This document shows, in pieces, positions 5,083 through 38,094 of a stretch of 38,347 bases of DNA. Source of the stretch: Akkermansia muciniphila. GTDB lineage: Bacteria; Verrucomicrobiota; Kiritimatiellia; RFP12; UBA1067. Position 1 is the first letter of the stretch; each line of letters opens with the position of its first letter. The notes under the pieces were generated by a model. The model did no database searches and had not been told where the DNA came from. It saw nothing but the letters and a program-made list of their open reading frames with translations. The DNA lies in assembly GCA_945870145.1 (NCBI GenBank), contig CAMBQV010000007.1, positions 1-38,347 on the forward strand, written 5' to 3'. Both the position numbers and the translations under genes were made by a program.

Positions 5083-6165
5083 TTAAATTGCTTTGCCTAG
5101 CAAAGGACGAACTTCCGGCTTTAACTCGTGGAAGCTGGTCCATGAGGCCTTCTTGTGGTGCTGAAGGCATCCTGCAATGATACCTGGATGAAGTCCCAGT
5201 TCCTGTGCAACCATTTGGATACGGAAAGAGGAAGGGCGCTGAATCTCTCTGAACGCGGCGAGGATATCCGCGCTCTTGAGCAGCGAAGCCGCAAAGTCGT
5301 CTGCCTCTTTCTCACGCGTGTTCGTCAGGTCAAGATGATCCAATGAGTCAATAAAGACTTGGCCTTGATTATCCTCGTGCAACAGGACATGTCCCAGCTC
5401 GTGCGCCATCGTGAACCAGAAGTTGTCAATGCGGTCATAGCGGGCTGTGTAGACAATAACCGGACGCCCTTCAGAGAAGAACGAGGCACCATCAGTATAT
5501 GTTTTCTGAAAGTGATCCACCTGCCGAAACACGACACCACACTGTGTCAGTTCCTGAATGAAGAGTCGAATGCCATTGTCCAGTTCTGTGAATTCAGGTA
5601 TCCGTTTAGCCAGCGTCTCCAACCGAGTTCTGTTGTATTTGCCAACCGAAAGTTTTCCTCTCAACGAGTTCCTAGCGAGTTGCAGCCATGTAAGCGCGTA
5701 AAAGGGGTTAAAACCTTTGTAGGCATCAGACTTACTGAAGCAGGCGGCCTTTTTTTCCAGAAAACTAAAGTCTAACTCGTCAATGCCCCAGAATTTTTTA
5801 ATCGCAGCGACCAGCTCATTCGTCTTACGAGGCAAATCCAAGACCTTCCGCAAATCTCGAATCGGCATATAGCGATAGATCAAAGCTTTTGCCTCGGTCT
5901 CCATCACCTTCGCTGACTCTTGAAGACGTTGGCGATAATTGGCATCGAGATTCAGCCAGAACTGAGGAGTCTGCTTGAATGCCTTCGACAATTGGCAGGC
6001 GGTCTCATACGTGACAGGGACTTTATTCCGCACCAGTTGACTGATGTGTTTCTCCGTCATGCCCATGATATCGGCTAAATCCTTCTGCTCCCATCCGTAA
6101 TGTTCTAACTCTTCACGGATTGAATCTCCCGGCCCCACATTCGTAAATGGTTTATATTGGCCCAT
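5083..6165 (-). CDS. higA: HigA-type HTH antitoxin fused to an ImmA/IrrE (HELGH) metallopeptidase domain
   Basis: PGDSIREELEHYGWEQKDLADIMGMTEKHISQLVRNK HTH; FTMAHELGHVLLHED zinc protease motif. The ORF could begin at GTG 6177, but ATG 6165 is preceded by GAGGTGG. Confidence 0.85.
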   Translation of the reverse strand: MGQYKPFTNVGPGDSIREELEHYGWEQKDLADIMGMTEKHISQLVRNKVPVTYETACQLSKAFKQTPQFWLNLDANYRQRLQESAKVMETEAKALIYRYMPIRDLRKVLDLPRKTNELVAAIKKFWGIDELDFSFLEKKAACFSKSDAYKGFNPFYALTWLQLARNSLRGKLSVGKYNRTRLETLAKRIPEFTELDNGIRLFIQELTQCGVVFRQVDHFQKTYTDGASFFSEGRPVIVYTARYDRIDNFWFTMAHELGHVLLHEDNQGQVFIDSLDHLDLTNTREKEADDFAASLLKSADILAAFREIQRPSSFRIQMVAQELGLHPGIIAGCLQHHKKASWTSFHELKPEVRPLLGKAI

Positions 6166-9946: not shown

Positions 9947-10275
9947 TAGCTATAACTTCAGAAGAATTGCCTTATTGCCTTATTGCGTCATTACCGCTTC
10001 GCTTTCGGCTTTCGCCGAATGGTTTCCGCTTCGCTCCAACGAGCCTTATTGAAATGCAACTACCGGACCACAAAGACACTAAGATTATAAGAATTTAAAG
10101 TATTTCTCTTCTTCGTGGCTTAGTGGCTTCGTGCGATACGGTTACTCATTCGTTTATCCCCGGGGGATTAACTGCCAACTGGTACTGCCGACTGCCGACT
10201 GCTACTGCCAACTGCTACTGCCGACTGCCGACTGCTACTGCCGACTGCCACTGCGCCGCCTCGGGCGGCGGGATT
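9947..10275. repeat. Dispersed intergenic composite repeat (copy a): GCTATAACTTCA...GCCTTATTGCC...CTTCGTGGCTTAGTGGCTTCGTG...GTTACTCATTCGTTTATCCCCGGGG...(ACTGCC)n...GGGCGGCGGGATTGCC
   Basis: Shares modules with 20748-21105 and 34468-34656; fills the gap between the RdgC-like start and the topA stop. Confidence 0.75.
10170..10253. repeat. Degenerate tandem (A)CTGC(Y)(R)ACTGC array
   Basis: actgccaactggtactgccgactgccgactgctactgccaactgctactgcc...; short version at 34621-34656. Confidence 0.8.
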
Positions 10276-34467: not shown

Positions 34468-34656
34468 GGGTCAGGGGTCGGGGTTTCCGCCTTCGCGATG
34501 CCTACGGCGGACAAGCAGGGTTCAGGAAATACTTTGTCTCGAACTTCGTCGATTCTAAAACTCTGCGCCCCTGCGCCTCTGCGGGATAAAGTTACTCGTT
34601 CGTTTATTCCCGGGGCTATCCAACTGCCAACTGCTACTGCCGACTGCTACTGCCAC
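34468..34656. repeat. Dispersed intergenic composite repeat (copy d)
   Basis: CGTCGATTCTAAAACTCTGCGCCCCTGCGCCTCTGCGGGATAAAGTTACTCGTTCGTTTATTCCCGGGG...AACTGCCAACTGCTACTGCC; fills the gap between the convergent sulP and CDF stops. Confidence 0.75.
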
Positions 34657-37412: not shown

Positions 37413-37556
37413 CAGTTGGCAGTGCCTACTTGCGTCCTGCTGTCCTTACGTCCTTGGGTCACACTCTTCTCGCGTGCCTTCCTGCGCCTTCCGGCGACCA
37501 CACAGTAGTCACTGGGAAGTGATTAAAAGGGCGAAAGGCCAAAGTAAAAAGAAAAG

Positions 37557-38021
37557 CCAAAAGTTTTCACTTTTGACTTTTCATTTTTTACTTAAAATTG
37601 GCGGAGAGAGAGGGATTGACGCTCTTTCGCTTACGCTCATCGCTCCCGTCCGTCAGTAGCCGGACGGGCCTCAAACGTGCGGTCGCCCTGCGCGACTACG
37701 CTGGGGCTTCGCGCGCGTTTGATCGAACCGGGGGTTCTCATCCCGAGAATAAGAAAAAAACCAAAAGTTTTCACTTTTGACTTTTCATTTTTCACTTAAA
37801 ATTGGCGGAGAGAGAGGGATTGACGCTCTTTCGCTGTCGCTCATCGCTCCAGGCTGGACGAGCCAGCCTGGCCTCAAACGAGCGGTCGCGCTACGGGGAT
37901 ACCCTTGCGCTTTGCGCGCGTTTGATCGAACCGGGGGTTCTCATCCCGAGAATAAGAAAAAAGCCAAAAGTTTTCACTTTTGACTTTTCATTTTTTACTT
38001 AAAATTGGCGGAGAGAGAGGG
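37557..38021. repeat. Tandem repeat, period ~203-204 bp, two full copies plus a partial third that runs into the tRNA-Ser 3' end
   Basis: CCAAAAGTTTTCACTTTTGACTTTTCATTTTT(T/C)ACTTAAAATTGGCGGAGAGAGAGGGATT begins at 37557, 37761 and 37964; the third continues as the genuine tRNA-Ser sequence. Confidence 0.95.
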
Positions 38022-38094
38022 ATTCGAACCCCCGGTGCCTTGCGACACACAACATTTCCAATGTTGCGCCATAGACCAACTCGGCCATCTCTCC
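38006..38094 (-). tRNA. tRNA-Ser (anticodon GGA), CCA encoded
   Basis: GGAGAGATGGCCGAGTTGGTC...CAACA-TTGGAAA-TGTTG...GGCACCGGGGGTTCGAATCCCTCTCTCTCCGCCA; long variable arm. Confidence 0.95.

Follow-up and report, generated by a model that had tools for sequence, protein, structure and literature searches.

A tRNA-linked tandem repeat with the layout of the Escherichia coli tyrT/RtT repeats, and a hairpin element that is probably mobile DNA as its core, behind tRNA-Ser(GGA) of Akkermansia muciniphila

Near one end of contig CAMBQV010000007.1, a tandem repeat lies directly behind a tRNA-Ser(GGA) gene and carries pieces of that tRNA at both ends of every unit. This raises the question of what such a repeat is, and in particular whether the hairpins within it belong to a structured RNA or to a mobile piece of DNA. 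We analysed the window, the whole stretch of 38,347 nucleotides that contains the array, together with the genome it comes from (G000, 2.43 Mb in 162 contigs) and that of a sister species (G001, one contig of which is CAIZQW010000379.1). TRF places the array at 37552-38024, with a period of 203, 2.3 copies, 90% matches and a score of 778. A preliminary description made from the window alone had reported a tandem repeat of ~203 bp, which is real; it had begun the array slightly too far to the right and had omitted the AT-rich terminator-like spacer. The motifs and stems that it named all lie where it had put them (Table 1).

Table 1. Features of the array and its tRNA, in window coordinates.
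Feature	Coordinates	Strand	Basis
Intact tRNA-Ser(GGA), source of the repeated 3' end	38006-38094	minus	ARAGORN; Rfam tRNA 57.6 bits
203-bp unit nearest the tRNA: spacer, inverted T-arm, core, tRNA 3'-end copy	37803-38005	minus	direct reading, TRF
Second 203-bp unit, 88% identity to the tRNA-proximal unit	37600-37802	minus	direct reading, TRF
Partial third copy: AT-rich terminator-like spacer beyond the last tRNA-end copy	37552-37599	minus	TRF
19-bp copy of the tRNA-Ser 3' end (TGGCGGAGAGAGAGGGATT), distal unit	37599-37617	minus	direct reading
19-bp copy of the tRNA-Ser 3' end (TGGCGGAGAGAGAGGGATT), proximal unit	37803-37821	minus	direct reading
Element E core, distal unit, between T-loop halves GGGATT / CGAACC	37618-37723	plus	CM R1 112.8 bits
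Element E core, proximal unit	37822-37926	plus	CM R1 118.7 bits
Hairpin H1, distal unit; sequence variable, pairing conserved	37645-37668		
Hairpin H1, proximal unit	37849-37871		
Imperfect hairpin H2, distal unit; conserved mismatches and internal loops	37671-37722		
Imperfect hairpin H2, proximal unit	37874-37925		
Inverted T-arm, distal unit; GGGATGAGAACCnnnGGTTC on the tRNA strand	37725-37744	minus	
Inverted T-arm, proximal unit	37928-37947	minus	
Terminator-like hairpin and T run, between tRNA and first unit	37958-37989	minus	
Terminator-like hairpin and T run, beyond the last tRNA-end copy	37551-37582	minus	

Read on the tRNA strand, each unit consists of an AT-rich terminator-like spacer, CTCGGGATGAGAACCCCCGGTTCGA, a core of 105-106 bp made of H2 and H1, and AATCCCTCTCTCTCCGCCA, which is the tRNA 3' end. 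The order is tRNA, spacer, GGATGAGAA..GGTTCGA, hairpin core, and AATCC with the remaining tRNA 3' end, and the inverted arm GGGAT..GAACC of the unit pairs with GGTTC..ATCCC. The 19-bp sequence that ends the units recurs at 38006-38024, where it is the genuine antisense 3' end of tRNA-Ser(GGA), and CCGGGGGTTCTCATCCC of the inverted arm stands at 37728-37744 and 37931-37947. The proposal that both unit ends derive from the tRNA, in opposite orientations, is supported. The pattern CTCAAAC..GTTTGWTCGAAC..GGTTCTCATCC matched twice, against 0.00 matches expected in shuffles, so the array is not a product of chance. Terminator-like sites in the array region were no more numerous than in shuffles. We call the core element E; it is a palindromic element of ~100 bp that occurs dispersed, in tandem, and as the core of the tRNA units. 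Its boundaries were inferred from empty and filled sites, and the distal-unit copy contains its own right-end GAT, where most copies have RTT.

We found that the array is one of several in the genus. The genome of the window also has units behind tRNA-Ser(CGA), tRNA-Ser(TGA) and tRNA-Asp(GTC), whose repeated ends match the local tRNA (GTGGCGGGGACGACGGGATT at Asp, GGCGGAGAGGGAGGGATT at Ser(CGA)). In the sister species, Asp, Ser(TGA) and a further Ser-like tRNA end carry units, and Ser(CGA) a truncated one; its orthologue of tRNA-Ser(GGA) was inspected and has no array. When the strict unit pattern was searched in the genome contig collection it matched in the sister species only, and neither plasmids nor phages gave a BLASTN match to the unit. 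At one contig end of the sister species (L093, contig C202), the right half of a tRNA-Asp unit has another repeat (..CGACAAAGCTCGCGACAAAGTT) in place of E; cores can therefore be swapped.

Local tandem duplication followed by decay, or an assembly artefact, would explain the array with no special element at all. The array does lie near a contig end, and so do several other copies. Against this, many positions separate the two window copies, with paired changes; two independently assembled genomes, and genomes of other families, have copies at several tRNAs; and complete E. coli genomes carry the same layout, at 1-12 matching places per genome. We consider this explanation highly improbable.

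The ends of the unit were then found far beyond the genus. Among 390 genomes of the phylum, 31 (from 28 genera) contain the arm pattern TCGAACN{1,12}GGTTCTCATCC, with 58 matches in total; its reversed control has 1 match. Since the pattern used to choose the set prescribes part of the motif, conservation inside the pattern is no evidence; tRNA adjacency, local matching and the reversed control are. At 24 of the 30 loci inspected a tRNA of the same orientation precedes the pattern, its 3' end 10-98 bp away (for arrays, the distance is that of the nearest unit), and the tRNAs are those for Ser, Asp, Tyr, Glu, Thr, Asn, Pro and Gln. On average the inverted arm agrees with the tRNA beside it over 7.0 nt, 4 nt of which are fixed by the pattern, compared with 4.83 nt after permutation (largest of 2000 permutations, 5.72). 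The outer closing pairs are formed in 86 of 126 cells compared with 64.6 in permuted sets, and none of 5000 permutations scored as high. Both unit ends follow the local tRNA. The frame was seen, for example, behind tRNA-Ser(CGA) in G010, tRNA-Ser(GGA) in G062 and tRNA-Tyr in G019. The RtT-like units of these relatives are 122-217 bp long, their cores of 30-112 nt are mutually unlike, and in several the spacer is merely 9-34 nt. A model of the E core (R2) found no match in this wider RtT-like set, and E is therefore not claimed as a general RtT core. The preliminary description had missed that the unit is a composite of a phylum-wide tRNA-end frame and a core that, among tRNA-linked units, is specific to this genus.

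Integrases that target tRNA genes classically leave a direct repeat of the 3' end beside an intact tRNA gene, with the crossover region in the symmetric T-arm. The layout of the window fits this picture, and the tRNA-end copies might be read as attachment-site scars of a lost tyrosine-recombinase element that integrated at the T-arm and 3' end, restored the gene and displaced the old 3' end. However, no unit contains an integrase or any other gene, and the units span only the lengths given above. At each of eight tRNA species both arms fit the local tRNA, which is impossible for one attP, and the inverted arm GGATGAGAA is conserved across the phylum and in E. coli. We think it very unlikely that the array arose in this way.

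The known tyrT/RtT repeats (RF00391, rttR) have this same layout, a likeness that the preliminary description had not recognised. The 178-bp repeats of E. coli were reportedly described by Egan and Landy and by Bosl and Kersten in 1991. To our knowledge these repeats behind tRNA-Tyr, known for decades, have no accepted origin. In the tyrV-rttR region of E. coli K-12 the layout is identical with a period of 178: GGTTCGAATCCTTCCCCCACCACCA, spacer, GGGGAAGGATGAGAAGCTTCGACCAAGGTTCGA, a 68-nt core and AATCCTTCCCCCACCACCA, three times over. Like these repeats, the window array directly follows the 3' end of an intact, identically oriented tRNA, is tandem, and closes each unit with the final ~19 nt of that tRNA. 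In both, an inverted arm GGATGAGAA (GGGGAAGGATGAGAA..GGTTCGA) pairs with the tRNA-end copy, and GGTTCGA is followed by a hairpin core at the position of the T-loop. The two differ in period (203 here compared with 178), in the terminator-like spacer between tRNA and unit, and in their core sequences, which are unrelated; the units of the genus stand at tRNA-Ser and tRNA-Asp, not tRNA-Tyr.

The window units gave no match to RF00391 at E up to 5 and did not reach its gathering cut-off of 45 bits, and because of this they are not filed in that family: they combine the same frame with a different core. In relatives the model matched exactly on units, always below the gathering score (L245, 39.8 bits, E 2.8e-4; L183, the tRNA-Tyr unit of G019, 35.6 bits, E 1.8e-3). 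Weak matches of the RtT model fall on units in L232, L237, L247, L252 and L257 as well. Common descent of the window units with E. coli RtT would rest on the layout, on the GGATGAGAA and GGTTCGA motifs, and on these weak model matches in relatives. A related start of a unit may be present in sX4 (RF02223), a Xanthomonas sRNA family whose model comprises tRNA-Ser and a flank ending in GGGGGGUGAGA, the start of a similar inverted arm; unlike the window unit, the model stops there and the remainder of the unit is absent. At L232 (1339-1508) this model spans the tRNA-Ser and ends in GGGGGGUGAGA. The sX4 family may be tRNA-Ser plus the beginning of an RtT-type unit.

With two copies, too few to judge, the preliminary description had proposed that the hairpins covary. 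Using 12 copies of the E core, and counting pairs on named structures rather than predicted ones, we found that 12 of the 25 pairs change on both sides and that 96.2% of cells pair. The covariation score is 0.421; shuffles give 0.167, and sliding the partner strand gives no more than 0.107. Addition of more divergent copies (14 in all) raises the changed pairs to 16 of 25. Thus structure is kept while sequence changes, as had been supposed, although the differences in H1 arise partly by exchange of whole hairpins of unequal length, beyond paired substitutions. Single-sequence folding z-scores of the units are modest (-1.5 to -2.6) and no argument rests on them. The R of the right-end RTT of E is paired with column 59 of H2, and the two covary (C-G in 7 and U-A in 5 of the 12 copies). 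Because of this, and because two filled sites (L027, L029) end in ATC, the right-end (A/G)TT belongs to E.

Strong covariation of pairs together with conserved unpaired motifs is what selection on an RNA would leave, and the unit could be a functional structured RNA, an RtT-like sRNA made from the tRNA transcript whose tandem copies raise dosage. The closing stem is maintained against the local tRNA end at many tRNAs, and the short spacers of several relatives leave little room for a terminator. In E. coli, according to PMC4986893 (citing Bosl and Kersten 1991), RtT RNA is liberated from transcripts of the tyrT tRNA operon and has a proposed role in the stringent response. However, the cores are wholly different between genera in both length and sequence, the sister species lacks an array behind the same tRNA, the E core is also dispersed and in tandem elsewhere, and in the window a terminator-like spacer parts the tRNA from the unit. 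We therefore regard a functional RNA as an unlikely, though by no means negligible, account of the array.

E was also traced outside the tRNA units. A covariance model of the core (R1) found 9 copies of E in the genome of the window and 26 in the sister species, most of them away from tRNAs, and R2 found related cores in 22 of 347 genomes of the class, from 15 genera; the E-values of both models, which were built here, are rough. Such a search of this and related genomes had been put forward in the preliminary description; over all searches made here, many copies do stand beside tRNAs. At four loci (L010, L027, L029, L031) E lies within the loop of a REP-like hairpin, exactly 3' of TATT, as in GCCGTGCATGTATT-core-CATGCGTGAGGC. 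The same hairpin, GCCGT(4-5 bp)TATT(4-5 bp)GYGAGGC, occurs without E in 54 copies (23 in the genome of the window and 31 in the sister species), often in inverted pairs about 125 bp apart. Comparison of empty and filled hairpins places the insertion of E 3' of the short fixed motif ATT, without target duplication. About half of the insertion sites are simple repeats rather than clear hairpins, and at L032 copies of E stand head to tail with a period of 94 and share one ATT. Because empty and filled REP-like hairpin sites exist, E is, as judged by this comparison of loci, mobile. The preliminary description had offered a mobile element with folded DNA intermediates as one option, and these sites speak for it.

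Further observations concern the same surroundings. The REP-like hairpins (for example L105-L134) have stems of CCGTG, CCATG or GCTG before TATT and of CACGG, CATGG or CAGC after it, between GCCGT and GYGAGGC; these stems covary, and the hairpins form a BIME-like family of their own. A short E of ~50 bp, with the left arm and H1 only, sits in the loop of GGGTGAAGGAC GGATT ^ GTCCTTCACCC in the sister species (L025 / L103, contig C310, ~207-306).

E resembles several known kinds of element. Like REP/BIME palindromes it is short, imperfectly palindromic and dispersed, with conserved mismatches and 9 and 26 copies. Some REP families are inserted inside other palindromes, and GTAG- and CGTC-tagged families are known (PMC3733652); rtT-like sequence has been found within enterobacterial BIMEs (PMC2965389). 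Unlike REP/BIME sequences, E is ~100 bp with two or three hairpins and, in the alignments inspected (A1, A2), shows no conserved GTAG or CGTC tag. REP elements are linked to Y1 (RAYT) transposases, whereas no E was found to flank a Y1 gene: there was none within about 1.5 kb of 19 Y1 matches in G000, G001 and G070, which are incomplete genomes. A search of three incomplete genomes for an autonomous relative, with the ends of E and a Y1 transposase, found none, and two E patterns searched in viral contigs had no match.

Non-autonomous elements of the IS200/IS605 type do not duplicate their target when they insert 3' of a short fixed motif, and have terminal hairpins and tandem junctions. E shares all of these features; it differs in that neither a full-length element nor a transposase with E ends was found, in that its motif is merely (A/G)TT, and in that H1 is freely exchanged. 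An integron attC site was rejected, since its core boxes RYYYAAC / GTTRRRY are not what E has at its ends (CYYAARC..GYTTRTT, alignments A1 and A2). Rickettsia palindromic elements offer a further likeness, as E-like 105-bp copies appear in frame in RHS/YD-repeat-like genes of other genera (L135, L138, L141, L203), but E differs from them in sequence and hosts, and we know of no counterpart of the tRNA frame among them. E-like copies apparently in frame within such genes, several of 105 bp, were seen at L140, L202 and L205 in addition, and give a recurrent peptide like GDRDFIAVPRGRSEERYPATQRQ; the location of the E-like cores of G004, G009, G414 and G488 in these genes is putative, the frame having been read by eye.

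Taken together, the array is probably an RtT-type tRNA-linked tandem module whose core in this genus is E, a mobile hairpin DNA. E would move as folded single-stranded DNA through an HUH/REP-like reaction supplied in trans, inserting 3' of ATT, retaining its own right-end RTT and making no target duplication. The T-loop, in antisense GGGATT^CGAACC, would offer an ATT site in a hairpin loop exactly where the core sits in the tRNA units. E may have colonised an RtT module already behind these tRNAs, or replaced the core of the module, and recombination between the repeated tRNA 3' ends may then have expanded the 203-bp array. Since the tRNA gene stays intact, the site behind it would be a safe harbour. 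If transcribed, the unit is predicted to form a stem that resembles a tRNA minihelix and has CCA at its end, and tRNA 3' processing could free it, as happens to the E. coli RtT RNA. Because a terminator-like spacer precedes the first unit, such release of RNA would be secondary in the window.

The layout of E. coli tyrT thus recurs throughout a second phylum; at least eight tRNA species have such units behind them, and the ends are copies of the local tRNA. In one genus its core is mobile, with empty and filled sites, so that the origin of such repeats becomes testable by comparative genomics and is tied to REP-like palindromes. The results also call for caution with Rfam families like RtT and sX4, which may in part be descriptions of a DNA element and not of a regulatory RNA. 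More speculatively, RtT-type units might form a broad bacterial class of tRNA-capturing modules, which on settling behind a tRNA acquire direct and inverted copies of its 3' end by a hairpin-templated DNA reaction, hence the local ends behind many tRNA species, and whose core is a slot for mobile hairpin DNA. We offer this generalisation tentatively and lean towards doubting it.

Some minor observations extend the picture. Simple tandem strings of ACTGCCAACTGCT / ACTGCCGACTGCT occur in the window at 10171-10254 and 34623-34655, and similar strings adjoin dispersed copies of E in the sister species. In genomes of family f15, E-like cores were seen at L211-L217 and L220, several of them amid many palindromes of the TTTTTCCACACTGTGGAAAA type. 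In viral contigs the arm pattern has 8 matches; some, L223, L225, L227 and L228 among others, look like chance matches in coding sequence, L222 resembles a unit, and at least L221 and L226 are tRNA-linked. L221 is IMGVR_UViG_3300025942_000043, where a unit at 5843-5862 carries the frame behind a tRNA 3' end in the viral collection.
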